Assembly (NCBI RefSeq): GCF_000516515.1 | Contig: NZ_KI911784.1 | Span: forward strand, 4,254,633-4,318,632 | DNA length: 64,000 nt | Source: Chloroflexus sp. Y-396-1 | Lineage (GTDB): Bacteria > Chloroflexota > Chloroflexia > Chloroflexales > Chloroflexaceae | Reading direction: 5' to 3' | In this document: positions 19,336 through 64,000 of the stretch, piece by piece | Layout: the number at the start of each line of letters is the position of its first letter | How positions within the stretch are numbered: the first letter of the stretch is position 1 | The notes under the pieces: generated by a model | What the model saw: the letters and a program-made list of their open reading frames with translations, nothing else | Told to the model about the DNA's origin: nothing | The model's database searches: none | Translations under genes and position numbers: made by a program

Positions 19336-22026
19336 ATGCTGCCATCAACGCTGACACTTGAACTTGTTCCGACAGACCAGCACGGCCTTGCTGTTCGTAT
19401 GGAACTGCTCAATGAGCAAATCCATCGACCGCCACAGTCCACCTTCCGTTGCGGGTTGTTTGATGAAGAGGGTCTGCGTTCGCTGCTGGGAAGTGACCCG
19501 TCGGCGTATGGTGAAGCATTGCGCGACGCCCTCTTCGCCGATCAGCAAGCAATCGCTACCTACCGCGAATTGCGAGCGGCAGCGCTCAATCGTGATCCCA
19601 GCGCTGCGCTGCGTTTACATCTGATTCTGCCCGAACACCTGCAAGCCATACGCTGGGAGCTGCTCGTCGATCCGGTAAGTCACCAACCGCTCGGTAGCGA
19701 CGGGCAGCTCTGGTTGAGCCGATATGTGCCGGTAGACGATGTTTCACCACCGTTATTACGCCGATCATCGGGCGAGCAGCGCGTATTGCTGGTGATTGCC
19801 GCTCCCAACGATGCCGAACGGTGGAATCTAGCACCGATTGACCGCTCAACATACGAAGGTATAGTACGGGGGGCCTGGGGTGGTTCGAGCGTGACGGTAA
19901 TTCCGGCAATCTGGCAGCGCCTTACCACTGAGCTGAGCAGCGGCTACGACATCCTGATTCTGGCAGCGCACGGCAGGCTGGTGAAGGGTCAGCCATGGCT
20001 GTATTTGACCGACGACCAGGGGAACACTGCCCCTCGGTCTGGCGATGACCTGGCCGCGCTCCTGCGCAGTCTGGGTACAGATTGCCCACGGCTGGTGGTG
20101 CTGGTCAGTTGTGCCGGGGCAGGCATGGATGACCAGAGCTGGGATGCTTTAGGTCCTCGCCTGGCCCGTGCGGGTGTGCCGGCAGTGGTTGCCGCTTACG
20201 GCGCGCTGACAATGGACACGGCAGCGATCATTCTTGACAACCTGTTTCGTGATCTCCGGCGGGAAGGCCGGATTGACCGGGCGTTGCAACGGGCGCGCCT
20301 GGCTGCCGCTCAGCAACAGCGTGCGGACTGGTGGCGGGTGACGCTCTTCAACCGCTGGCGTGATGGTCAGATATGGGAGCCAATACACCCAACATCACTT
20401 ACGGTTGCTCCTTTTAAAGTTCCCTATCGGCGCAACCCGCTTTTCTGCGGGCGTGAGCGTGAACTTGCCGAGCTTAAACAAACCTTATGCGGCGCGGAAG
20501 CGGTTACTGTTGTTCTCACCGGTATGGCCGGTGTGGGCAAGAGTCAATTGGCCAGTGAATGTGCCCATCGTCTGCGCGATCACTTCCCAGGTGGTGTCTT
20601 TTGGCTGGATATGAGCACCCCTGACCAGGTACCGGCGCAGATCGCTGCCTGTGGTGGCGTGGATGGGTTGAACCTTCCGGGCTGGAACGGTTTGAGCCTG
20701 GAGGATCAGGTACGGGCGGTGCAACGGGCCTGGCAGCAGTCGATCCGTCGTTTGCTCATCTTCGATAATCTGGAAGAGCGGACGTTGCTGCGACAATGGC
20801 GACCAACGACCGGCGGTGCGCAGGTGCTCGTCACCAGTCGGCGGAGTGACTGGCGAGCAACGGATGACGTTCACCTGCTTCCACTCCGCCCGACCGAACG
20901 CAACGATAGTTATCGGATTCTGCTGGGGCCACGGGCCAGGATTCAGCAAACTACTATTGCAGACCTGCTTACCGATCCTTTGCAGCAGCAAGCGGCTGAT
21001 GCTATCTGTACGTTCCTGGGTGACCTACCGCTGGCCCTGGCCCTTGCCGGCGCCTATCTGGAAGACTCAAATCTATCGCTCAGTGCATATCGTCAGCGGC
21101 TGGAACAGACTGTTCTTGAACATCCTTCGCTCGGTGATGAGCAGGCAGCCGAGAGTGATCTACCGACTGCTTATCGGCAAGGTGTGGCCGCCGCCCTCTC
21201 GCTAAGCTACAACCGACTGGATCGCACGCGGGACGAGGACGCAGCAGCGTTGACGTTCCTCCACCGACTGGCCTGGCTGGCACCAGAGCCGGTACCGCTA
21301 CCGTTGCTGACCGCCCTGGCAGGTGGCGATGCCGACAATGAGGCAGCAGCCGATCCGATGTTGCGGCGATTGCGGGGAATAGGATTGATTGACCGGCGTG
21401 AAGTACAGCTTCACCGGTTGACGGCGACCTTTGTGCGAGGGTGCGATCCGGAGCCTGAGGAAACGTTAACGGCAACGGCCGTAGCGATGCTGAAGGTCAG
21501 TGATCATCTGAAGGACGCCTTCGAGCGCACACCGCCGGCAAGTATCCCGTACCGTCCGCACTATGTAGCGGTGTGTCAGCAGGAAACACGCTTGTCCGAT
21601 CAGGTTGCTGCCCATCTGTTGACAACAACGGGGTATATTCTCTATCTGCTTGGCGAGTACGCCGTGGCGCGCCCGCTCTATGAACGGGCACTGGCCATTC
21701 GCGAACGCACGCTTGGCCCCGACCACCCGGACACGGCCACGAGCCTGAACAACCTGGCGGGGCTGCTGGAGAAGCAGGGGGAGTACGCCGCGGCACGCCC
21801 GCTCTTTGAACGGGCGCTGGATATTCGCGAACGCACGCTTGGCCCCGACCACCCGGACACGGCTGCAAGCTTCAACAACCTGGCGTTGCTGCTGAAGGAG
21901 CACGGTGAGTACGCCGCGGCACACCCGCTCTATGAACGGGCGCTGGATATTCGCGAACGCACGCTCGGCCCCGACCATCTGCAAACACAGTGGATTCGTG
22001 ATCGGTTAAGGAAACTGGGGGATTGA
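19336..22026 (+). CDS. STAND protein 1: CHAT protease - NB-ARC NTPase - TPR
   Basis: 896 residues. A CHAT caspase-fold domain covers about 90-345, with catalytic His212 in LAAHG and Cys259 in LVSCAGA. An NB-ARC NTPase follows: P-loop GMAGVGKS at 396-403, Walker B LLIFDN at 473-478, QVLVTSRRSDW sensor and DLPLALALAGAYL. The C-terminus has about three kinesin-light-chain TPRs (YERALAIRERTLGPDHPDTA) encoded by near-identical 126-base units at about 21640-22000. In this class, ligand sensing by the repeats is thought to drive NTP-dependent oligomerisation that activates the protease, for defence or cell death. The ligand and the protease target are not evident. Confidence 0.88.
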   Translation: MLPSTLTLELVPTDQHGLAVRMELLNEQIHRPPQSTFRCGLFDEEGLRSLLGSDPSAYGEALRDALFADQQAIATYRELRAAALNRDPSAALRLHLILPEHLQAIRWELLVDPVSHQPLGSDGQLWLSRYVPVDDVSPPLLRRSSGEQRVLLVIAAPNDAERWNLAPIDRSTYEGIVRGAWGGSSVTVIPAIWQRLTTELSSGYDILILAAHGRLVKGQPWLYLTDDQGNTAPRSGDDLAALLRSLGTDCPRLVVLVSCAGAGMDDQSWDALGPRLARAGVPAVVAAYGALTMDTAAIILDNLFRDLRREGRIDRALQRARLAAAQQQRADWWRVTLFNRWRDGQIWEPIHPTSLTVAPFKVPYRRNPLFCGRERELAELKQTLCGAEAVTVVLTGMAGVGKSQLASECAHRLRDHFPGGVFWLDMSTPDQVPAQIAACGGVDGLNLPGWNGLSLEDQVRAVQRAWQQSIRRLLIFDNLEERTLLRQWRPTTGGAQVLVTSRRSDWRATDDVHLLPLRPTERNDSYRILLGPRARIQQTTIADLLTDPLQQQAADAICTFLGDLPLALALAGAYLEDSNLSLSAYRQRLEQTVLEHPSLGDEQAAESDLPTAYRQGVAAALSLSYNRLDRTRDEDAAALTFLHRLAWLAPEPVPLPLLTALAGGDADNEAAADPMLRRLRGIGLIDRREVQLHRLTATFVRGCDPEPEETLTATAVAMLKVSDHLKDAFERTPPASIPYRPHYVAVCQQETRLSDQVAAHLLTTTGYILYLLGEYAVARPLYERALAIRERTLGPDHPDTATSLNNLAGLLEKQGEYAAARPLFERALDIRERTLGPDHPDTAASFNNLALLLKEHGEYAAAHPLYERALDIRERTLGPDHLQTQWIRDRLRKLGD

Positions 22027-27859: not shown

Positions 27860-30800
27860 ATGACTAAACGCGCCCTTATTATTGGGGTCAACAGATCGGA
27901 AAACGACCCAACCTTTGTTGCCCTGCGCAGCGCTGAACGTGATGCGAATGATCTGGCGAGCGCACTGCATGACTGCGGTTTCGCGGTGCAATCGCTGATC
28001 GGGCAACAGGCGAAGACGGCTGCAATTCGCGAGGCAGTTGCCAGATTGCGAAAGCAGGCTCATGGTGAGAGTGATCTCTTCATAGCCTTTTCTGGTCACG
28101 GGGCCTGGATTCCGGTGGCTGGACACCCCGATGGTACGACCTTCCTGGTCAGTGCCGATTACGAGAGCGAGATCGCTACCGACGACCCCAACTACTACCT
28201 CTCCCTCGACTGGTGGTATACCCAGTTGCTCGCCTGGGATAAGCCGCGCAGTGTGGTGCTGGTGCTCGATTGCTGCTTTGCCGGTAATGTCGCACAGGCC
28301 GCCGAGCGGCGATCTATCGGCGATGCGATTGAACAGCACTTTCGCGGCGTCACCGTTCCAACCGGACGCCTGCGGGCGTATCTAGCGGCAACTGTACCGG
28401 GCGAGAAAGCCTATGAAGATGACCGTGGCGGATTGTTGACGCAGACGGTGGTGGCGTGTCTGCGCGATAAGGACCGCTCCGGTGATGGGCTGCTCACCGT
28501 GCCGGTGTTGATCGATGCGGTAAAAAAGCAACACTCCGAACATTTCCATCCCTTCGCCGAGTATAAAGGCGATTATCATTGGGTGCTCGCCGATCACCGC
28601 GAAGCCCGGCGAGCGGCACGAGAGATGCAGCAGGCTGAGCAACGGCGTGCCGAGGCGCAACAGCGACTCGCACGCTGGCAATCACCGCACAGCACTGCCC
28701 GCTGCAACGAGTTGCTGCGTGGCTTCGTCGGAAGAGTGAACGAATTAGCGCAACTGTTGGCTGAAATCGAGAAGCTGCGCGCCAGCGGCGGCTATTTACT
28801 GGTGACCGGTGTTGCCGGGCAGGGCAAGAGCAGCATTCTGGCCAAACTGATCAAACACCGCGAGCGCGAGTCTGAACCAACCCCCGCCTACTTCATCCGC
28901 TTTACCCCTGGGCCTTCAGAACAGGCTGCGCTGCTCGGCCATCTGATCGCCGAACTGCTGACCCTGGTCAAACGCGAGGCCGATGCGCTGACCTACCTGC
29001 CCGACGGCGACAATGTGGTGGCGTTGCGTAACAGTTTCGAGACGCTGCTGAGCAATCTAGCTGCTGATCGTCCGCTGACGCTGGTGATTGACGGGCTAGA
29101 CCAGATTCAACCCGATCAGAGGATCGGACAGCGCGATCTGAGCTTCCTGCCCGAACAGCTACCGCCCGGTGTGGTGCTGGTGATCGGTACCCGTCCTGAC
29201 GACACACTGAAGCCGCTCAGGTTACGCACCCCGTACCGCGAATATTGCCTGCCACCGCTGAGCGAAGCCGACTTTGGCGAGCTGCTGCGTGATCGCGGCG
29301 TGACGCTCAGCGCGCATGAGCAATCGGAACTCTACCTTGCGCTCCACGGCAATGCCTTCGACCTGGCCTACCTTGTGCAGGAGATACGCCAGACACCGGT
29401 CACCGACATCGCCGCGCTGCTCCAACGGGTGATTGCCAACCCACGCGACCTGTTCACGCCAACGCTGGAACGGTTGCAGCTCGATTGGAACCTGTGGGAA
29501 AAGGTGCTGCGTCCCCTGCTGGGTATCCTGCTGGTGGCCCAGGAACCGCTCAGCCGCAATGCGCTGCGCGAGATTCTTAACGTCTTTCAGGATCGTATCC
29601 AAACCGCGATTGAGCGCCTGGGGGGCCTGCTCGGTGTGCGCGATGTACAGGGACAACCGAGGTACGGGTTGATCCACCTGAAACTGATCGACTACCTGCG
29701 CACGCAGACGTTCGCCGCTGACGAACTGATCGCCAGTCATGCCCAGATCGCAGCGTGGTGCAGTCGTGATCTGGCGCATCTCTGGCAACCATCGCCTGAA
29801 CTTGTCGAACAGGAACGACGTGCCTACGGGCAGACCCACCTGGTCACACACCTGACAGCCGCGCAGAAGTATGACGACGTCTGGAAACTGCTGGACGATG
29901 ACGAGTACGGTGCAGCGAAGCGGCGGGCTGACCCCAGTCTGCGGGCGTACATTACCGACCTTGACCGGGTGCGGCAGGCAATGGCGGATGCGTCGGATCA
30001 CAACCGGCAGCAGATGGCGGCATGGCCGGCGCGGCTCTGGCGCTACAGCCTGCTGCGGGTCAGCCTGACGAGCAGCGTTGACCGGTGGCCGACGGAACTG
30101 TTCACCGCGCTGGTGGCATTGGGGCAGGGCGCCGAAGCGCGTGATCGGGCCGAGTTGCTAAGTGATCCGCAAAAACGGGCAAAAGTGCTGACCGCAGTGG
30201 GGCGGGCGTTGCTGGAACGCGGCGCTGCCGGCGGCTTGGCGGCGCTCCGTCGCGCCCGCGCCGCCGCCGCGGCGATTGCCGACCCCCGCGAGCGCGCCGA
30301 GGCCCTGGGCGCGCTGGCGCAGGCGCTGGCGCAAGCGGGGCAGTGGGAGGCGGCCCGGCAGACCGCCGATGCGATTGCCGACCCCTTCTGGCGCTACGAG
30401 GCCCTGGGTGCGCTGGCGCAGGCGCTGGCGCAAGCGGGCGATGACGCCGCAGCCCGCCAGACCTTCGCCGCTGCCCGGCAGACCGCCGCGGCGATTGCCG
30501 ACCCCCGCGAGCGCGCCGAGGCCCTGGGCGCGCTCGCGCAGGCGCTGGCGCAAGCGGGGCAGTGGGAGGCCGCCCGGCAGACTGCTAAGGCCATTGACTT
30601 ACTCTTTTGGCGCGCCAAAGCCCTGGGCGGGCTGGCGCAGGCGCTGGCGCAAGCGGGGCAGTGGGAGGCGGCCCGGCAGACCGCCGCGGCGATTGCCGAC
30701 CCCTTTTGGCACGCCTGGGCCCTGAACGGGCTAGCGCAGGCGCTGGCGCAAGCGGGGCAGTGGGAGGCGGCCCGGCAGACCGCCGCGGCGATTGCCGACC

Positions 30801-33151
30801 CCTTTTGGCGCGCTGCGGCCCTGGGCGGGCTGGCGCGGGCGCTGGCGCAAGCGGGGCAGTGGGAGGCCGCCCTACAGACCGCCGAGGCGATTGCCGACCC
30901 CTTTTGGCGCGCCGAGGCCCTGAGCGGGCTGGCGCGGGCGCTGGCGCAAGCGGGGCAGTGGGAGGCCGTCCGCGCTGCCGCGGCGATTGCCGACCCCCGC
31001 GAGCGCGCCGAGGCCCTGGGCGCGCTGGCGCAGGCGCTGGCGCAAGCGGGGCAGTGGGAGGCGGCCCGGCAGACCGCCGCGGCGATTGCCGACCCTGATA
31101 AGCGCGCTTGGGCCCTGGGCGCGCTGGCGCAGGCGCTGGCGCAAGCGGGGCAGTGGGAGGCCGCCCGGCAGACCGCCGCGGCGATTGCCGATCCCGAAAA
31201 GCGCGCCGAGGCCCTGGGTGCGCTGGCGCAGGCGCTGGCGACAGCAGGTGATGACGCCGCAGCCCAACAGACCTTCGCCGCCGCCCGCACTGCCGCCGAG
31301 GCGATTGCCGACCCTGATAAGCGCGCTTGGGCCCTGGGCGCGCTGGCGCAGGCGCTGGCGCAAGCGGGGCAGTGGGAGGCCGCCCGGCAGACCGCCGCGG
31401 CGATTGCCGACCCCTTTTGGCGCGCTGCGGCCCTGGGCGCGCTGGCGCAGGCGCTGGCGCAAGCGGGCGATAACGCCGCAGCCCAACAGACCTTCGCTGC
31501 CGCCCGGCAGACCGTCGCAGCGATTGCCGACCCCCGCAAGCGCGCCGAGGCCCTGGGCGGGCTGGCGCAAGCGGGGCAGTGGGAGACGGCCCGGACGGCC
31601 CGGCAGACCGCTGCAGCGATTGCCGACCCCCGCAAGCGCGCCGAGGCCCTGGGCGCGCTGGTGCGGGCGCTGGCGCAAGCGGGGCAGTGGGAGGCCGCCC
31701 GGCAGACCGCCGCGGCGATTGCCGACCCCGAAAAGCGCGCCGAGGCCCTGGGTGCGCTGGCGCAGGCGCTGGCGACAGCAGGTGATGACGCCGCAGCCCA
31801 ACAGACCTTCGCCGCCGCCCGGCAGACCGCCGCAGCGATTGCCGACCCCTTTTGGTGCGCCAAAGCTCTGGGCGGGCTGGCGAGGGCGCTGGCGCAAGCG
31901 GGGTGGTGGGAGGCTGCCCGGCAGACTGCTGAGGCCATTGACTTACTCTGTTGGCGCGCCAAAGCTCTGGGCGGGCTGGCGCAGGCGCTGGCGCAAGCTG
32001 GGCTGTGGGAGGCCGCTCTACAGACCGCCGCGGCGATTGCCGACCCCTTTTGGCGCGCCAAAGCCCTGGGCGGGCTGGCGAGGGCGCTGGCAGCAGCGGG
32101 CGATGCACCAGCAGCCAAGCAGACCTCTGCCGCCGCCCGCACGACCGTCGCAGCGATTGCAGACCCCCTTCGACGCGCCAAGGTGCTGCGCATGCTGACG
32201 CAGGCGCTGACCAAGGCCCGGCAGTGGGACGCTGCCCGCGCTGCCGCTCTTGCGATTGCTGACCCTTTTTGGCGTGCCGAGGCCCTGCGCGCCCTAGCGC
32301 AGGCGCTGGTTCACGAGCAACAGTGGGCAGAGGCTCGGCAGACCTTTGCCGCCGCTCAGCAGACTGCCAAGAAGATTGCTGCCCCTGAAGAGCGCGCCAA
32401 GGCCCTGGGTGTGCTGGCGCAGGCGCTGGCGCGAGCGGGGCAGTGGGAGGATGCCCGGCAGACCGCCGATGCGATTGCCGACCCCTTCTGTCGCTACGAG
32501 GCCCTGGGTGTGCTGGCGCAGGCGCTGGCGCAAGCGGGGCAGTGGGAGGCCGCCCGGCAGACCGCCGCGGTGATTGCCGAAGGCTTTTCGCACGCTGCGG
32601 CCCTGGGTGCGCTGGCGCAGGCGCTGGCGCAAGCGGGGCAGTGGGAGGCCGCCCGGCAGACCGCCGAGGTGATTGACAGCCCCGTATGGCGCGCCGAGGC
32701 CCTGGGCGCGCTGGCGCAGGCGCTGGCGCAAGCAGGCGATGACGCCGCAGCCCGCCAGACCTTCGCCGCCGCCCGCACCACCGCCGAAGCGATTACCGAC
32801 CCTGGAAAGCGCGCCAAGGCCCTGGGCGCGCTGGCGCAGGCGCTGGCGCAAGCAGGCGATGACGCCGCAGCCCAACAGACCTTCGCCGCCGCCCGCACCA
32901 CCGCCGATGCGATTGCCGACCTCCGCGAGCGCGCCGCGGCCCTGGGCGGGCTGGCGCAGGCGTTGATCCGCACCGGTCAGATTGACGATGCGGTGGCGCT
33001 GCTGGTCAGAGCGTGGGCGCAGGCGCAGATCATTGACGAGTTGACCGAACTGTTTGTGGTTGATAGCTCGTTGCTGCGTGCGTATCCGACGCTGGGCGGC
33101 GATCTGCTAGAGGCGTTTGACTGGGTGGAGCGGGTGGTGCGTGCCGCTTGA
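27860..33151 (+). CDS. STAND protein 2: caspase (C14) - NACHT-like NTPase - 26 helical repeats
   Basis: 1763 residues. A peptidase C14 domain (1-245) begins KRALIIGVNRSENDP, with His80 in FSGHGAW and Cys139 in LDCCFAG as catalytic dyad. A coiled linker rich in Glu, Gln and Arg (245-275) leads to a STAND NTPase: Walker A GVAGQGKSS at 317-325, Walker B LVIDGLDQ near 408-415, and VLVIGTRPD. From about residue 804 to 1700 there are some 26 TPR-like helix-pair repeats of 33 or 40 residues, strikingly alike. Likely role: a repeat-sensed, NTP-gated protease in defence or programmed death. It is GC-rich in the repeats, with long empty antisense frames there. Confidence 0.88.
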   Translation: MTKRALIIGVNRSENDPTFVALRSAERDANDLASALHDCGFAVQSLIGQQAKTAAIREAVARLRKQAHGESDLFIAFSGHGAWIPVAGHPDGTTFLVSADYESEIATDDPNYYLSLDWWYTQLLAWDKPRSVVLVLDCCFAGNVAQAAERRSIGDAIEQHFRGVTVPTGRLRAYLAATVPGEKAYEDDRGGLLTQTVVACLRDKDRSGDGLLTVPVLIDAVKKQHSEHFHPFAEYKGDYHWVLADHREARRAAREMQQAEQRRAEAQQRLARWQSPHSTARCNELLRGFVGRVNELAQLLAEIEKLRASGGYLLVTGVAGQGKSSILAKLIKHRERESEPTPAYFIRFTPGPSEQAALLGHLIAELLTLVKREADALTYLPDGDNVVALRNSFETLLSNLAADRPLTLVIDGLDQIQPDQRIGQRDLSFLPEQLPPGVVLVIGTRPDDTLKPLRLRTPYREYCLPPLSEADFGELLRDRGVTLSAHEQSELYLALHGNAFDLAYLVQEIRQTPVTDIAALLQRVIANPRDLFTPTLERLQLDWNLWEKVLRPLLGILLVAQEPLSRNALREILNVFQDRIQTAIERLGGLLGVRDVQGQPRYGLIHLKLIDYLRTQTFAADELIASHAQIAAWCSRDLAHLWQPSPELVEQERRAYGQTHLVTHLTAAQKYDDVWKLLDDDEYGAAKRRADPSLRAYITDLDRVRQAMADASDHNRQQMAAWPARLWRYSLLRVSLTSSVDRWPTELFTALVALGQGAEARDRAELLSDPQKRAKVLTAVGRALLERGAAGGLAALRRARAAAAAIADPRERAEALGALAQALAQAGQWEAARQTADAIADPFWRYEALGALAQALAQAGDDAAARQTFAAARQTAAAIADPRERAEALGALAQALAQAGQWEAARQTAKAIDLLFWRAKALGGLAQALAQAGQWEAARQTAAAIADPFWHAWALNGLAQALAQAGQWEAARQTAAAIADPFWRAAALGGLARALAQAGQWEAALQTAEAIADPFWRAEALSGLARALAQAGQWEAVRAAAAIADPRERAEALGALAQALAQAGQWEAARQTAAAIADPDKRAWALGALAQALAQAGQWEAARQTAAAIADPEKRAEALGALAQALATAGDDAAAQQTFAAARTAAEAIADPDKRAWALGALAQALAQAGQWEAARQTAAAIADPFWRAAALGALAQALAQAGDNAAAQQTFAAARQTVAAIADPRKRAEALGGLAQAGQWETARTARQTAAAIADPRKRAEALGALVRALAQAGQWEAARQTAAAIADPEKRAEALGALAQALATAGDDAAAQQTFAAARQTAAAIADPFWCAKALGGLARALAQAGWWEAARQTAEAIDLLCWRAKALGGLAQALAQAGLWEAALQTAAAIADPFWRAKALGGLARALAAAGDAPAAKQTSAAARTTVAAIADPLRRAKVLRMLTQALTKARQWDAARAAALAIADPFWRAEALRALAQALVHEQQWAEARQTFAAAQQTAKKIAAPEERAKALGVLAQALARAGQWEDARQTADAIADPFCRYEALGVLAQALAQAGQWEAARQTAAVIAEGFSHAAALGALAQALAQAGQWEAARQTAEVIDSPVWRAEALGALAQALAQAGDDAAARQTFAAARTTAEAITDPGKRAKALGALAQALAQAGDDAAAQQTFAAARTTADAIADLRERAAALGGLAQALIRTGQIDDAVALLVRAWAQAQIIDELTELFVVDSSLLRAYPTLGGDLLEAFDWVERVVRAA
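30270..32960 (+). repeat. Array of about 26 near-identical 99/120-base coding repeats
   Basis: Inside the caspase-NACHT gene. The basic unit is 33 codons (IADPFWRAEALGALAQALAQ then AGQWEAARQTAAA). A second type inserts seven codons (GDDAAAQQTFAAARQT). DNA identity between units is very high, including synonymous sites, pointing to recent duplication or gene conversion. Changes cluster just after IADP (FW, RE, DK, EK, RK). Confidence 0.9.
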
Positions 33152-58766: not shown

Positions 58767-58894
58767 CCCTTCCCCCCCCGCAAGCGGGGGGGAAGGGGGG
58801 GTGATACCGCAAGCGGGGGAGGAAGGGGGGGTGATACCGCAAGCGGGGGGGAAGGGGGGGTGATACCGCAAGCGGGGGGGGAAGGGGGGTAGCC
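58767..58894. repeat. Four G-rich tandem repeats before STAND gene 3
   Basis: Units of 29-30 bases, each GCAAGCGGGGG(GG), AAGGGGGGG, TGATACC, with slightly different G-run lengths. The first unit also pairs with a preceding CCCTTCCCCCCC run. They end ten bases before the -35 at 58904. G-runs of five to seven could form quadruplexes or change length by slippage. Confidence 0.75.
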
Positions 58895-58972: not shown

Positions 58973-61900
58973 ATGCCGCTAACCATAACCCTACATCGCA
59001 CCGCCGTCGACCGCGCTGATGTATACGTGGCCGAGAAGTGCATTGCTTCCTTTGACCCAGCAGCACTGCGTTTTGATCACCCGTTTGTCAGCCAACCCCA
59101 GCAGGCGAGTGAACCGGTTGCATACGGTCAACGATTACTGGCCGCCCTTGGCGGCAATGACCTAAAGCGGATGCTGACCGAGTTGCCGCCTGCGCCCCAG
59201 CTCGAGAGCATGATCGCGCTGCACACGACCGACACCGAACTGGCGGCGATTCCCTGGGAGTTTCTGCACAATGGGAATGAGTTTCTCATCGAGCGCTACC
59301 TGCTGGTACGTGAAGTAGAAGTACCAAACGCCCTCCTTCCTCCGCCACCGCTATCTGATCAACCATGGCGGCTGGTAGCGATAGCGAGCAATCCCTTGCT
59401 GAGAGAGGTGTACGACGAGCAGGGAAGGCTATGTGATCGGCAGCTCATGGCGCCCCTGTCGGTAGAGCGTGAACTCGATCTCCTGCGTGACGATTTCCAG
59501 AAACAGCGATCGCCCCTGCGCTGGCAGCAGATCGCTCCCACTCGCTCGGCGCTGATTGATGAGCTGGCAACGACCGAGCCGCTCCTCCTTCACTTTGCCG
59601 GTCACGGTGCAGTTGTCAATGGAACACCAGTACTGTATTTTGACGACGGCGCTGGGAAGCTCGATCCGCAGACGGCATCTGAGCTGGCGAACCATCTGCG
59701 CGGGATGGTGATGCTGGCCTTTTTCAATGCCTGCCGCACCGCCGATAGTATCGAGCCAGGAGCGAATCTGGCGCTAACCCTGGTGCAACATGGGATTCCG
59801 GTCGTGCTGGGTAATCAGTACCTGGTACTTGACGAAGCGGCGGCACCGGTCGCCCGCACCTTCTACCGGTTTCTGGCTACCGGTCTGCATCCGGCGCAAG
59901 CCCTCTATCGGGCGCGTCTCCAGCTTCAGAGTCATCGGCGCAATGATCCGCTTGCGTGGGCTGTACCGGTACTCTACTTGGCGCGGGGCTACCGATGGCT
60001 TAAGCCTCCTGTTGGGAACCAACACCAGCCACCACCGCCCATTGAACCACCGCGACCCGCCATTAGCGCCTTGAGCGTCCCCGATTACACGACTGGCGCC
60101 TTTGTCGGCCGCCAGCAGGAACTGTACGAGCTAGCCCGGCTCTTCGTTCACGACCAGAAACGAATTGTGACCATTCGTGGCACCGGCGGGATCGGCAAAA
60201 CGGCGCTGGCGGCAGCGCTGGCCCATCGCTTGCGCTTCTTCTTCGACGACGGCATCGTTGCCCTGAGCCTGGTTCTCCCTGGTGAGCACGCCACCCTCGC
60301 TGCCGCGACGGTGCGTCGCCAACTGGCGATGGCGCTCGGTATCGATGTGAAGAACGAAAAGTCCTGGTCTGCTGATGAGCAGGAACAGGAAGACCTGCTG
60401 ATAACCACAATCTGCTCACGCCGTCGCCTGCTGGTGATCTGGGACAACTACGAGACAGTGCTCTGGCGGCTAGGGCGAGAAACCGCTGCCGATGACCTCT
60501 CGCCCTTTTCGCCTGAACAGTGTAACGAGGCGGTTGTCGTTCAGCGCCTGGTGCGCAAGCTGGCCGACAACGGCGCATGGATGCTCTTTACTACCCGTCA
60601 GTCGCCGGTGGGACTACCCGGCGAAGTATGCTTCCCACCGATAGAGGAGGGACAGCAGTTGACCGGTCTGAACCCGGAAGCCAGTGTTGAACTGATGCGA
60701 CGCTGGCTCAGCAAACGCACGCCCAGCGAGACGTTTCTCAAGCAACTCGCTGCCGCCCTTGGCCACCACCCATTGGCTATGGTGCTGACGATCAGACGCT
60801 GGGATCAAGGTCAAGACACCGAGAACACCTTCCTGGAGCAGTTGGAGCAGGCGTTGGCCGAGGCCAGTGATCCGGCAGCGCCGGTTTACCAGCAGACCTC
60901 GGTTGAGATAAGCGTCCGCCTGTCGCTGGCAGCGCTGCCCCCTAAGCTGCAAGAAGCACTGCTCTGTCTTACCATCATCGCCAATCCGAAGATTACCCCG
61001 CTCCACGCTGCGGTAGTGTGGGGGATGACAGCGGGATCACAGTGGCTGATCGAACCGGCCCATCGCCAACTAGAAACCCTGCAACAGACCTCGCTCCTGC
61101 TGGGTCAGGGCTACGACCAGGAACATAACCGCGCCCTCACCTACGCGATCCAACCGGTCATTGCCACAGTCCTCCGCAGGTACGCACAGACCCATGATCT
61201 CAGCGCCGCCCGTATTCGCTACGGCCGGTGGGCGGCGGCGCTGGTTGATCAAGCCCGTGATCCTCAACACGGCATCAATGCTAGCGCCGAACTGGTACAG
61301 CAGATGCAGTCGCTGCTGCCTGACATTGCCGAGGCGCTGGCCGCACTGCCGACACCAGAACGAGGCTGGGCGCTCTGGCGGGCAACGTGGGTGCTCAACC
61401 GCTTGGGTGATCCGGCCACGGCCTGGCGACTGATTGAGCAGGCGAACCAGCTCGCCCAGGAACACAACGACGAGGCGCTGCTGAGTCGCGTCTACCACCA
61501 GCAAGCCGATCTGCTGGTCACCCGCGGCGACCTCGACGGCGCCCTCGCCCTCTACCAGCAGTCCCTCGACCTTGATGAACGCCTGGGCGATGTCCAAGGC
61601 AAGAGCGCCACCCTCCACGCAATGGCTGGGGTGCTGGTCACCCGCGGCGACCTCGACGGCGCCCTCGCCCTCTACCAGCAGTCCCTCGCCCTGTGGGAGA
61701 GCCTGGGCGATGTCCAAGGCAAGAGCGCCACCCTCCACGCAATGGCTGGGGTGCTGGTCACCCGCGGCGACCTCGACGGCGCCCTCGCCCTCTACCAGCA
61801 GTCCCTCGCCATCTGGGAACGCCTGGGCGATGTCCAAGGCAAGAGCGCCACCCTCCACGCAATGGCGCACGTGCTGGTCACCCGCGGCGACCTCGACGGC

Positions 61901-63343
61901 GCCCTCGCCCTCTACCAGCAGTCCCTCGACCTTGATGAACGCCTGGGCGATGTCAAAGGCAAGAGCGCCACCCTCCATAATATGGCGCACGTGCTGGTCA
62001 CCCGCGGCGACCTCGACGGCGCCCTCGCCCTCTACCGGCAGTCCCTCGCCATCAAGGAACGCCTGGGCGATGTCAAAGGCAAGAGCGCCACCCTCCATAA
62101 TATGGCGCACGTGCTGGTCACCCGCGGCGACCTCGACGGCGCCCTCGCCCTCTACCAGCAGTCCCTCGACCTTGATGAACGCCTGGGCGATGTCAAAGGC
62201 AAGAGCGCCACCCTCCATAATATGGCGCACGTGCTGGTCACCCGCGGCGACCTCGACGGCGCCCTCGCCCTCTACCAGCAGTCCCTCGACCTTGATGAAC
62301 GCCTGGGCGATGTCAAAGGCAAGAGCGCCACCCTCCACGCAATGGCGCACGTGCTGGTCACCCGCGGCGACCTCGACGGCGCCCTCGCCCTCTACCAGCA
62401 GTCCCTCGCCATTAAGGAACGCCTGGGCGATGTCCAAGGCAAGAGCGCCACCCTCCACGCAATGGCGCACGTGCTGGTCACCCGCGGCGACCTCGACGGC
62501 GCCCTCGCCCTCTACCAGCAGTCCCTCGCCATTAAGGAACGCCTGGGCGATGTCCAAGGCAAGAGCGCCACCCTCCACGCAATGGCGCACGTGCTGGTCA
62601 CCCGCGGCGACCTCGACGGCGCCCTCGCCCTCTACCAGCAGTCCCTCGCCATTAAGGAACGCCTGGGCGATGTCAAAGGCAAGAGCGCCACCCTCCATAA
62701 TATGGCGCACGTGCTGGTCACCCGCGGCGACCTCGACGGCGCCCTCGCCCTCTACCAGCAGTCCCTCGCCATTAAGGAACGCCTGGGCGATGTCAAAGGC
62801 AAGAGCGTCACCCTGGTCATGATGGCACAGGTCCAGTTTATGCGCGGCGAACACGATCAGGCGCTGTGCAATGCCCGCGAGAGCCTGCGCCTGCTTGAGG
62901 CAATGGGAGCGCAGCCTGATGCCGCAAAGGTAGCCGAGATTATTCAGCAGATGGAAGCGATGCGTCGCCAAGCAGTGCTGCCGACGCAGGGAGTTGAGGG
63001 TTCCGCACAGCTTGAGGAAGCGACAACGGCGCTGGCAGCGTTGCTTGAGCAGGTGTCGCCGGCGCAGCGCGCCGAGATGCAGGTGCTGCTTCAGGTTGCA
63101 CCGCTACTGATCGGCGCGGCGGCGCTGTTGAGTCGGGCAGATGCCGATGATGAACGCAAGGCACTCGCCGCAGTGTTAGCACAGGCCGCAGACCAGGCTG
63201 CTGCGGGTGAAGCTGCCGGTTCACCATGGCTAGCAGCAGCGGCGACGTTGCGCACGCTGGCCGGTTGGCTAAGCGGCGCGCCGGTTGATCTCGATGCGCT
63301 CGCTGAGCCATATCGCGGTCTGATGCGGCAGATGATGGAGTAA
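58973..63343 (+). CDS. STAND protein 3: CHAT protease - NB-ARC NTPase - hyper-similar TPRs
   Basis: 1456 residues. The CHAT domain (about 80-345) has His211 in LLHFAGHGAV and Cys254 in FFNACRTAD. The NB-ARC NTPase follows with P-loop GTGGIGKT at 403-410, Walker B LLVIWDN at 486-492, MLFTTRQSP and LGHHPLAMVL. Residues about 846-1283 are eleven 40-residue TPRs (VLVTRGDLDGALALYQQSL...), nearly identical, then one diverged unit and a helical C-terminus. AGGAG lies six bases before ATG 58973; the open frame starts at 58904, inside the promoter. Probable repeat-sensed protease in defence or cell death. It is followed by zinc-ribbon and membrane-protein genes. Confidence 0.88.
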   Translation: MPLTITLHRTAVDRADVYVAEKCIASFDPAALRFDHPFVSQPQQASEPVAYGQRLLAALGGNDLKRMLTELPPAPQLESMIALHTTDTELAAIPWEFLHNGNEFLIERYLLVREVEVPNALLPPPPLSDQPWRLVAIASNPLLREVYDEQGRLCDRQLMAPLSVERELDLLRDDFQKQRSPLRWQQIAPTRSALIDELATTEPLLLHFAGHGAVVNGTPVLYFDDGAGKLDPQTASELANHLRGMVMLAFFNACRTADSIEPGANLALTLVQHGIPVVLGNQYLVLDEAAAPVARTFYRFLATGLHPAQALYRARLQLQSHRRNDPLAWAVPVLYLARGYRWLKPPVGNQHQPPPPIEPPRPAISALSVPDYTTGAFVGRQQELYELARLFVHDQKRIVTIRGTGGIGKTALAAALAHRLRFFFDDGIVALSLVLPGEHATLAAATVRRQLAMALGIDVKNEKSWSADEQEQEDLLITTICSRRRLLVIWDNYETVLWRLGRETAADDLSPFSPEQCNEAVVVQRLVRKLADNGAWMLFTTRQSPVGLPGEVCFPPIEEGQQLTGLNPEASVELMRRWLSKRTPSETFLKQLAAALGHHPLAMVLTIRRWDQGQDTENTFLEQLEQALAEASDPAAPVYQQTSVEISVRLSLAALPPKLQEALLCLTIIANPKITPLHAAVVWGMTAGSQWLIEPAHRQLETLQQTSLLLGQGYDQEHNRALTYAIQPVIATVLRRYAQTHDLSAARIRYGRWAAALVDQARDPQHGINASAELVQQMQSLLPDIAEALAALPTPERGWALWRATWVLNRLGDPATAWRLIEQANQLAQEHNDEALLSRVYHQQADLLVTRGDLDGALALYQQSLDLDERLGDVQGKSATLHAMAGVLVTRGDLDGALALYQQSLALWESLGDVQGKSATLHAMAGVLVTRGDLDGALALYQQSLAIWERLGDVQGKSATLHAMAHVLVTRGDLDGALALYQQSLDLDERLGDVKGKSATLHNMAHVLVTRGDLDGALALYRQSLAIKERLGDVKGKSATLHNMAHVLVTRGDLDGALALYQQSLDLDERLGDVKGKSATLHNMAHVLVTRGDLDGALALYQQSLDLDERLGDVKGKSATLHAMAHVLVTRGDLDGALALYQQSLAIKERLGDVQGKSATLHAMAHVLVTRGDLDGALALYQQSLAIKERLGDVQGKSATLHAMAHVLVTRGDLDGALALYQQSLAIKERLGDVKGKSATLHNMAHVLVTRGDLDGALALYQQSLAIKERLGDVKGKSVTLVMMAQVQFMRGEHDQALCNARESLRLLEAMGAQPDAAKVAEIIQQMEAMRRQAVLPTQGVEGSAQLEEATTALAALLEQVSPAQRAEMQVLLQVAPLLIGAAALLSRADADDERKALAAVLAQAADQAAAGEAAGSPWLAAAATLRTLAGWLSGAPVDLDALAEPYRGLMRQMME
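61501..62820 (+). repeat. Eleven near-identical 120-base coding repeats
   Basis: Exact 120-base period inside STAND gene 3. Most of each unit (CTGGTCACCCGCGGCGACCT and onward) is identical in all copies. Variation is confined to a few codons: the helix tag DLDE, ALWE, AIWE or AIKE; GDVQG or GDVKG; LHAMA or LHNMA; final Gly or His. Variants are reshuffled between units. Confidence 0.95.
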
Positions 63344-63387: not shown

Positions 63388-63576
63388 ATGAGTGACAGCG
63401 TGCGCTACGAATGTCCGAAATGCAAACACCTCAATATCTGGACCCGCGATGAGTTGTTGCAGCGTGGTCAACGGGTTATTTACCGCGCTGAAGAGACGAA
63501 CGAAGAAATCATCTTTAGCGTCCGTTGCAAAAATCGGTACTGTGACGAGCGGATGCGGATTGTGGTCAAGAAGTGA
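63388..63576 (+). CDS. Small zinc-ribbon protein
   Basis: 62 residues. CPKC near the start and CKNRYC near the end form a probable four-cysteine zinc site around a beta hairpin (RVIYRAEETNEEIIFSVRC). GGAG lies before the ATG. It is 44 bases after STAND gene 3 and nine bases before the membrane-protein gene, so probably one operon. Function unknown. Confidence 0.7.
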   Translation: MSDSVRYECPKCKHLNIWTRDELLQRGQRVIYRAEETNEEIIFSVRCKNRYCDERMRIVVKK

Positions 63577-63584
63577 GGGACAGG

Positions 63585-64000
63585 ATGCGGATCGCAGGCC
63601 CCGAGACATCTGAAGAGCGTGAGCTGCGCGAATGGTTTGCCGCTCAGGAGCGAGGAAATGTTGACCGGCTAGAAACCGGCGCTCAAACGATTATTCAGTT
63701 GGTAAGCGGGTTGTACGGTGTCCTGTTTGCCGTGCTGGCGTTGAACGATCAGCCAGCATACCTGCAAAACAGCGTCGTGCGCTGGGTCGGGAGCGCAGGA
63801 GTCTGTGTCTTTTTTGCCTCGCTGATTGCCGCCATGCTGGTGCTGGTGCCGCGACGGATGACCTATCAACACGATAATGTGACCGATATGGCGCGGGTGT
63901 ATCGTCAGTTGCAAGGGCGGAAAGCCACGTTGCTTCAAGTAGCTCAGATGACGTTTCTGCTCGGTATTGGATGTGTGATTACCGTGATCCTGGCGATTTT
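63585..64000 (+). CDS. Membrane protein (3' end cut by window edge)
   Basis: At least 138 codons from ATG 63585, with GAGGGA upstream, open to the right edge. A soluble helix (SEERELREWFAAQERGNVDR) precedes two membrane helices (about residues 37-52 and 72-88), then a basic loop (VPRRMTYQH) and a third helix at the edge. The pattern recalls small membrane effectors near conflict NTPases, but no family was recognised. Likely in the STAND 3 operon. Confidence 0.65.
   Translation, partial: MRIAGPETSEERELREWFAAQERGNVDRLETGAQTIIQLVSGLYGVLFAVLALNDQPAYLQNSVVRWVGSAGVCVFFASLIAAMLVLVPRRMTYQHDNVTDMARVYRQLQGRKATLLQVAQMTFLLGIGCVITVILAI

Follow-up and report, generated by a model that had tools for sequence, protein, structure and literature searches.

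The window analysed here is a 64,000-nucleotide stretch of the genome of Chloroflexus sp. Y-396-1 (assembly GCF_000516515.1, contig NZ_KI911784.1, positions 4,254,633 to 4,318,632), and positions are those of the window unless another locus is named. Close to its end, the window encodes a large receptor-like protein in which a CHAT domain, a STAND/NB-ARC core, a helical linker, eleven 40-residue tetratricopeptide repeats (TPRs) and a C-terminal tail follow one another in this order. The source genome is designated G000, other genomes bear G codes and other loci L codes, one genome per species being compared; G001 is a congener and G064 belongs to another family of the same order. The features of the gene are as follows:

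58973..63343, + strand: CHAT-STAND(NB-ARC)-TPR receptor-like gene, ATG start, 1456 codons plus stop (Pfam)
59162..59974, + strand: CHAT (caspase-like) protease domain (Pfam CHAT 9e-28; structure-model matches)
60101..60715, + strand: STAND NTPase core (NB-ARC/NACHT) (Pfam; Walker A at 60179-60202)
61512..62814 (in frame 61514-62833), + strand: array of eleven 120-bp TPR units, with main variable codons 19-23, 28, 35-36 and 38-39
62834..63340, + strand: C-terminal cap and tail downstream of the array, 169 codons (468 in G001 and G064)

The layout features of STAND proteins and NOD-like receptors (NLRs) are present, namely an NTPase with a Walker A motif in the middle of the protein, an N-terminal effector and a C-terminal repeat sensor. 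Indeed (i) the putative caspase-like pair of the CHAT domain, H210/C253 (counted from the residue after Met), is encoded by a His codon at 59603-59605 (GHG) and a Cys codon at 59732-59734 (NAC), both of which are unchanged across nine aligned heads, (ii) the Walker A residues GxGGxGKT are unchanged in the same nine heads, and (iii) the NTPase core matches Pfam NACHT (1.6e-5, 25.3 bits for a cut-off of 26.7) and NB-ARC (7.3e-5, 22.6 bits for a cut-off of 23.5), both slightly below cut-off, and the protein matches TPR_12 at 9.6e-76. The head alignments leave out the L016/L063 copy, which has a stop, as well as L068 and L069. In the predicted structure of the head (mean pLDDT 73), the STAND part resembles Apaf-1 (Foldseek E 2e-8), CED-4 and plant NLRs, with a Z score of 14.3 against the plant NLR resistosome 6j5t, and the CHAT part resembles Csx29/TPR-CHAT (Z 19.5, 284 residues, 3.5 A) and SAVED-CHAT (Z 19.1). 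The array is modelled as a regular two-helix solenoid (pLDDT 93), with LGN/Pins TPRs as top Foldseek matches.

The first-pass annotation, made from the sequence alone, had described eleven near-identical 120-base TPR units, and these are indeed encoded in frame in one gene. Tandem Repeats Finder delimits them at 61512-62814 (period 120, 10.9 copies, 95% matches, 0% indels). Unit 11 merges with the C-terminal cap, and the last unit of every array was excluded from the variation tests. Among units 1-10, DNA identity averages 0.934 (minimum 0.867) and pairwise amino-acid identity 0.909 (minimum 0.825); by this mean, the array falls within the definition of more than 85% identity over at least 100 amino acids given for fungal repeats in PMC4986451, the identity being pairwise here and not computed with the authors' program. 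Only 11 of the 40 codons vary among these units and the remainder are identical, silent sites included. Amino-acid changes are found at codons 15, 19, 20, 21, 23, 28, 36 and 39, and silent variation is confined to codons 20, 22, 35 and 38, each at most one codon away from a replacement-variable codon (P about 0.04 for all four, a weak value).

The variation is organised in blocks. The alternatives quoted in the first-pass annotation, CACGCA/CATAAT (HA/HN), CAA/AAA (Q/K) and the helix-B block GACCTTGATGAA/GCCATTAAGGAA, are all found in the array, together with further block alleles, namely GCCCTGTGGGAGAGC in unit 2, GCCATCTGGGAA in unit 3 and GCCATCAAGGAA in unit 5, and GGG/CAC at codon 39. The blocks had been said to appear in different combinations, which holds for two of the three pairs: eight of the ten units are distinct, and the helix-B block assorts freely with Q/K and with HA/HN (Fisher P=1, on no more than eight units per test), but linkage is almost complete between Q/K and HA/HN (Q-HA in five, K-HN in four, K-HA in one and Q-HN in none of the 10 units; P=0.048). 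The recombination proposed among units has left recognisable signs, with 13 informative sites, 28 site pairs showing all four gametes and a minimum number of recombination events (Rmin) of 2; four-gamete violations are present in all three long arrays (G000, G001 and G064). In two of these three arrays, adjacent units resemble each other more than expected (P 0.025 and 0.036; third array P 0.82). Since multi-base alleles recur in different company, repeated point mutation is unlikely, and exchange between units is the simplest cause of their recurrence in new combinations. A search of the whole genome with one unit gave 12 matches, every one inside the array, and a search with two units gave one extra match elsewhere, of 30 bases at 90%; thus no separate store of cassettes was found. 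No template repeat of a diversity-generating retroelement was recognised either, there being no second copy of a unit in the genome (no search was aimed at a reverse transcriptase). Taken together with an amino-acid identity of 0.91-0.93 within arrays vs 0.78-0.85 between arrays, this sequence pattern indicates that the array very probably undergoes concerted evolution.

The positions that vary are similar from one array to another. In G001 the amino-acid-variable positions are 3, 20, 21, 23, 25, 28, 35, 36 and 39, and in G064 they are 2, 20, 21, 30, 36 and 39; positions 20, 21, 36 and 39 of the 40 are variable in all three long arrays (P 2.5e-5 under random placement on 40 positions, a lenient null, since burial restricts which positions can vary and the arrays have a common origin). 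According to the description in PMC1261162, the most variable, concave positions of TPRs are 2, 5, 9, 12, 13, 33 and 34 and the ligand-contact positions are 2, 5, 6, 9, 12 and 13; alignment of the unit to the consensus TPR converts them into unit positions 32, 35, 36, 39, 2, 3, 23 and 24, hereafter the preset positions. Six of these eight positions are variable in at least one array, vs seven of the 32 elsewhere (P 0.008). By array, the enrichment at concave positions has P 0.18 in G000 (3 of 8 variable positions), 0.008 in G001 and 0.08 in G064. The proposal that the variation faces a ligand is therefore supported over the three arrays at the published positions but is not significant in the window's own array, and part of the variable positions lies within the published concave set whereas positions 15, 19-21, 25, 28 and 30 lie outside it. 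Burial of the variable sites, which would speak against variation in ligand-facing residues, seems not to apply: judged from the residues, position 20 carries I, L or S and the other 12 of the 13 positions variable in the three arrays accept polar or charged residues.

Tests of selection gave results that depend on the codons considered. The mean ratio of replacement to silent polymorphism among units (pN/pS) is 0.98 in G000 and 1.64 in G001, and heads compared between species have a dN/dS of about 0.1-0.3. At the eight preset codons, the replacement rate exceeds the silent rate 5.9-fold in G001 (P 0.002) and 3.6-fold in G064 (P 0.04), and 3.3 times with the three arrays pooled (P 3e-4). The pooled excess at the preset codons agrees with the suggestion of diversifying selection, but it does not extend to the unit as a whole, whose replacement to silent ratio does not go beyond neutral. 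We read these sequence comparisons as purifying selection on the scaffold, together with diversifying selection on the ligand-facing codons that is probable, though not proven.

Unit number varies widely among relatives, from 1 to 15 between species. The homologue in G001 has 15 units (head 58% identical) and that in G064 has 10. Further whole arrays are those of Chloroploca asiatica (three units plus one diverged), L062 (two), L065 (one), G007 (one), G028 (two diverged), AL-N1 (L069; six diverged) and G050 (one). Contigs stop inside the array in four of the 11 named loci and directly before it in a fifth, as is expected for repeats that short reads cannot span; in G146, from a further family of the phylum, the contig also ends in the array. 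A search with three units through an even sample of 400 genomes of the phylum gave matches (E up to 1e-28) in 11 of them. In addition, related TPR units, with differences at some of the positions that vary in the long arrays, are carried by three loci of family f13 of the phylum (L160, L161 and L162); homologues of the head and of the partner are present in L161 and L162, the partner lying upstream, and L160 gave neither a head nor a partner match. A distant CHAT-STAND-TPR protein (L126, G002:C1:1068696) contains four TPR units that are nearly identical to one another but differ in sequence from those of the window, so that other subfamilies may show the pattern as well.

The arrays are also unusual in composition. 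At fourfold degenerate sites, the G+C content of the three long arrays is 0.95, 0.98 and 0.99, compared with 0.71, 0.77 and 0.83 in heads and 0.61, 0.75 and 0.78 in tails; the shorter or cut arrays L059, L060, L062 and L064 behave alike (0.88-1.00 vs 0.74-0.81), including L062, which has only two units (0.96 vs 0.81). G+C-biased gene conversion would give such an excess, codon preference being the alternative. Horizontal exchange of arrays was considered because the scaffold dS between G001 and G064 is 0.05 vs 0.75 for the head, but it was not adopted, as the arrays are nearly saturated for fourfold G+C. When only first units were compared, at fourfold codons whose third base was G or C in both sequences, the differences were 0.33 vs 0.40 in heads for G000-G001, 0.32 vs 0.34 for G000-G064 and 0.47 vs 0.41 for G000-L060; the G001-G064 value stays lower (0.05, i.e. 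1 of 20, vs 0.19 in heads).

Two small genes follow the receptor gene:

63388..63576, + strand: 62-amino-acid open reading frame (ORF) with CxxC pairs, zinc-ribbon-like, between the receptor and the membrane partner (Pfam matches below cut-off)
63585..64007 (the window ends at 64000), + strand: partner gene encoding a 141-amino-acid protein with three hydrophobic stretches, predicted to be membrane helices, whose homologues adjoin receptor homologues

Partner homologues 56-76% identical adjoin a receptor homologue in G001 (at both loci), G007, G064, L060, L062 and L065. More distant receptor-partner pairs are found in G002, G024, G034 and G050, and also in G042, G146 and G188, where the partner is upstream. 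A survey of 82 genomes of the order detected a head (E up to 1e-60) in 18 and a partner (E up to 1e-3) in 19, with 14 having both (P 1e-8, kinship ignored). Four genomes have a head without a partner; in three of them (G006, G035 and G036) the contig ends in or before the array, and the fourth is G043. PADLOC assigns the partner to family C3a152 ('Type III-C specific', 6.3e-42). The zinc-ribbon-like ORF lies beside the partner in 11 of the 16 loci scanned, its own locus included; homologues (36-64% identical) were found at the syntenic place of G002 and in G064, L062, G007, G001 (both loci), L065, L060, G050 and G042, and no match at E up to 1 was obtained in L044 (where the contig is cut), L047, L091, L092 or L093. 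From this recurrent adjacency, the receptor, the zinc-ribbon-like ORF and the membrane partner look like a three-gene set in the closer relatives. L065 comes from a metagenome bin whose record is titled Chromatiaceae bacterium, yet it has a receptor of Chloroflexales type together with the zinc-ribbon ORF and the partner, owing either to mis-binning or to transfer.

The chromosomal setting indicates that the receptor comes and goes, one congener having no detectable syntenic receptor and another one split by an insertion. The window's receptor is located after galactokinase and hydrolase genes. At the syntenic place of G002 (L148, 4934000-4943000), the galactokinase (89% identical), the hydrolase (83%) and the next downstream gene (80%) are present and the membrane partner (70%) and zinc-ribbon ORF (64%) are retained, but a receptor head is not detectable. 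The receptor of G001 is at a different place from that of the window, and its flanking genes have homologues near the receptors of two further congeners, G006, in which the receptor is truncated by the contig end, and G007. Between G007 and G001, the upstream run is 72 to over 99% identical and the downstream genes 51-77%, the receptor segment of G007 being inverted relative to the upstream run. Within this conserved neighbourhood the array has 15 units in G001 vs one in G007, for heads 76% identical over 746 residues. The G007 receptor gene is broken near residue 96 by an insertion with the organisation of IS607-type elements, in which a MerR/resolvase gene is accompanied by a TnpB-like gene:

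L045, 8545-10710: resolvase and TnpB-like genes (IS607-type layout) inside the CHAT part of the G007 receptor homologue

Furthermore, a G-rich 29/30-bp tandem repeat of about 3.8 copies lies directly upstream of the window's receptor gene (58778-58890). Three NLR-like genes are present in the 64 kb of the window. Beside the receptor, these are a second CHAT-NB-ARC-TPR protein (19336-22026), with 2.6 copies of a 126-bp TPR unit (89% matches), and a 1763-amino-acid caspase (Peptidase_C14)-NACHT protein (27860-33151), with a long degenerate helical-repeat array (99-bp period), lying in a stretch of 76% G+C.

An immune-type receptor that renews its sensor by exchanging repeat units would agree with the layout, the turnover and the variation. 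We consider it probable that the protein is a bacterial NLR-like receptor, probably serving defence or self/non-self recognition, whose sensor evolves by concerted evolution together with diversification. Its components are held with differing confidence: beyond the concerted evolution already discussed, selection for diversity is considered somewhat more likely than not to act on the array; a role of the receptor in defence or self/non-self recognition is also favoured; and it is suggested tentatively that the membrane partner may be an effector or a substrate. In such a mechanism, unequal crossing-over and gene conversion between units would generate novel surfaces of the sensor, and the ligand-facing codons would be kept diverse by selection for ligands that vary or change, for example phage or non-self proteins. 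Ligand binding would then free the nucleotide-locked STAND core, the protein would oligomerise and the CHAT domain would be activated; the activated CHAT domain could cleave the membrane partner or other proteins, leading to dormancy or death of the cell in the filament. It is a more doubtful extension that the solenoid is rebuilt by unit exchange so rapidly that it differs between strains or even between cells of one filament population, which would make the receptor and its two companions a bacterial counterpart of the fungal allorecognition NLRs and would open a route to hypervariable sensors with no need for a retroelement.

Several results weigh against an immune-type receptor under diversifying selection. 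The minimum-change replacement:silent counts over whole units are 14:6 in G000, 18:3 in G001 and 13.5:3.5 in G064 (P 0.77, 0.15 and 0.52), and pooled (45.5:12.5, P 0.25) they show no excess over neutral. The preset codons of the G000 array taken alone give a 1.8-fold rate that is not significant (P 0.24), and the pooled number of changes is also reached by 4% of randomly drawn sets of eight codons. Common descent links the units of each array as well as the three arrays themselves, and the P values therefore overstate independence. Position 21, the most variable of helix B, is in neither published list; by helix periodicity it might lie at the edge of the groove. The array need not be long: among the ten close arrays available in full, six consist of one to four units. 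At the threshold used, the partner occurs without a head in five genomes, two of which, G024 and G034, contain a weaker head. Finally, at the level of profiles, the receptor and the partner match no Avs family of PADLOC at E up to 0.01.

Part of these results would be accommodated by a neutral young amplification, in which slippage and conversion homogenise the units, purifying selection maintains buried sites and exposed sites drift, without any role in recognition. The whole-unit ratios, the pN/pS values, the closer likeness of adjacent units in two of the three arrays and the frequency of short arrays agree with it; we nevertheless consider it rather unlikely, for the same four positions vary in three arrays, the pooled variation falls on ligand-facing positions listed beforehand, and codons away from the variable blocks have no silent variants among ten units. 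TPRs often bind fixed partners, and the array might instead be a structural or housekeeping scaffold, i.e. a length-tunable platform for a fixed cellular partner, with unit number setting reach or avidity, as HetF-like CHAT-TPR cell-division proteins might be. The CHAT part has a weak NCBIfam match to HetF (8.5e-9, 34 bits vs a cut-off of 1200), but the patchy presence of the receptor (18 of the 82 genomes of the order), the lack of a detectable receptor at the syntenic place in one congener and the insertion that interrupts it in another are unlike a core function and make such a scaffold improbable.

The unit number and order could also be unreal if near-identical repeats had been collapsed or mis-joined during assembly. 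The interruption of relatives' contigs inside the array at four of 11 loci and just before it at a fifth is compatible with this, as is the reconstruction of similar WD40 arrays from long reads and not from Illumina assemblies, as described in PMC12222747; yet the frame is open through eleven units, and the single-contig genomes G001 and G064 also have long, different, mosaic arrays, so that an artefact appears very improbable. The variable codons might also be written by a diversity-generating retroelement or from a silent donor store. Such retroelements are described in PMC10907252 as diversifying proteins of the STAND and CHAT types in other multicellular bacteria, but with no second unit copy in the genome and only the single 30-base match outside the array (no search was aimed at a reverse transcriptase), the probability of this reading is close to nil. 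A bacterial NLR-like receptor with a sensor renewed by unit exchange thus remains the explanation that we prefer.

If this explanation is true, the concerted evolution and diversification of NLR solenoids described in fungi also acts on bacterial TPR sensors, and filamentous bacteria become a system for testing repeat-shuffled sensor diversification and its ligand. The receptor is built like the immune receptors of plants, animals and fungi, and its near-identical units appear to be duplicated, dropped and recombined as a few predicted target-facing positions go on changing, which hints that repeat shuffling may be a source of recognition diversity in bacteria as well. Two companion genes are named as well, and the membrane protein may be a substrate of CHAT or an effector. 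Searches of the open-access literature found no account of near-identical TPR units being shuffled in a CHAT-STAND protein of bacteria.

Among known systems, the CHAT fold is shared with the TPR-CHAT protein Csx29 of Craspase, which differs in being described as part of an RNA-guided CRISPR complex. Csx29 is not known to have a STAND core. The label C3a152 of the partner points to a CRISPR neighbourhood, whereas its usual neighbour here is a CHAT-STAND-TPR gene (CRISPR genes were not looked for). Avs proteins have the same effector-STAND-repeat layout, and their TPR-type sensors bind phage proteins; in the description given in PMC10907252 these are conserved phage proteins, and no shuffling array was noticed there. 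In the WRAP group of bacterial STAND proteins, whose beta-propellers were amplified recently (Dunin-Horkawicz et al. 2014, following the account in PMC9218822), sensor repeats are likewise near-identical and a function in innate immunity is proposed, but the sensors are WD40 propeller blades, whereas that of the Chloroflexus receptor is an open-ended TPR solenoid; highly repetitive propellers are reported in bacterial as well as fungal proteins (PMC9218822, PMC12222747). The first-pass annotation had pointed to fungal NLR repeats. The host being a bacterium, the fungal NLR is only an analogy. The annotation is supported in that the protein is NLR-like and its TPR units evolve in concert. Fungal NLRs with internally conserved TPR, ANK or WD repeats (Podospora, HNWD), as described in PMC4986451, share with it the NB-ARC domain, the near-identical TPR units and the varying repeat number; in the Podospora NB-ARC/TPR genes the same source describes the same renewal by exchange, with 2 to above 14 TPRs among isolates and variable sites on the concave face. 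The Chloroflexus receptor differs from them in being bacterial, in having a CHAT protease in the place of the effector and in being accompanied by two small genes, and the variation in unit number recorded here is between species.

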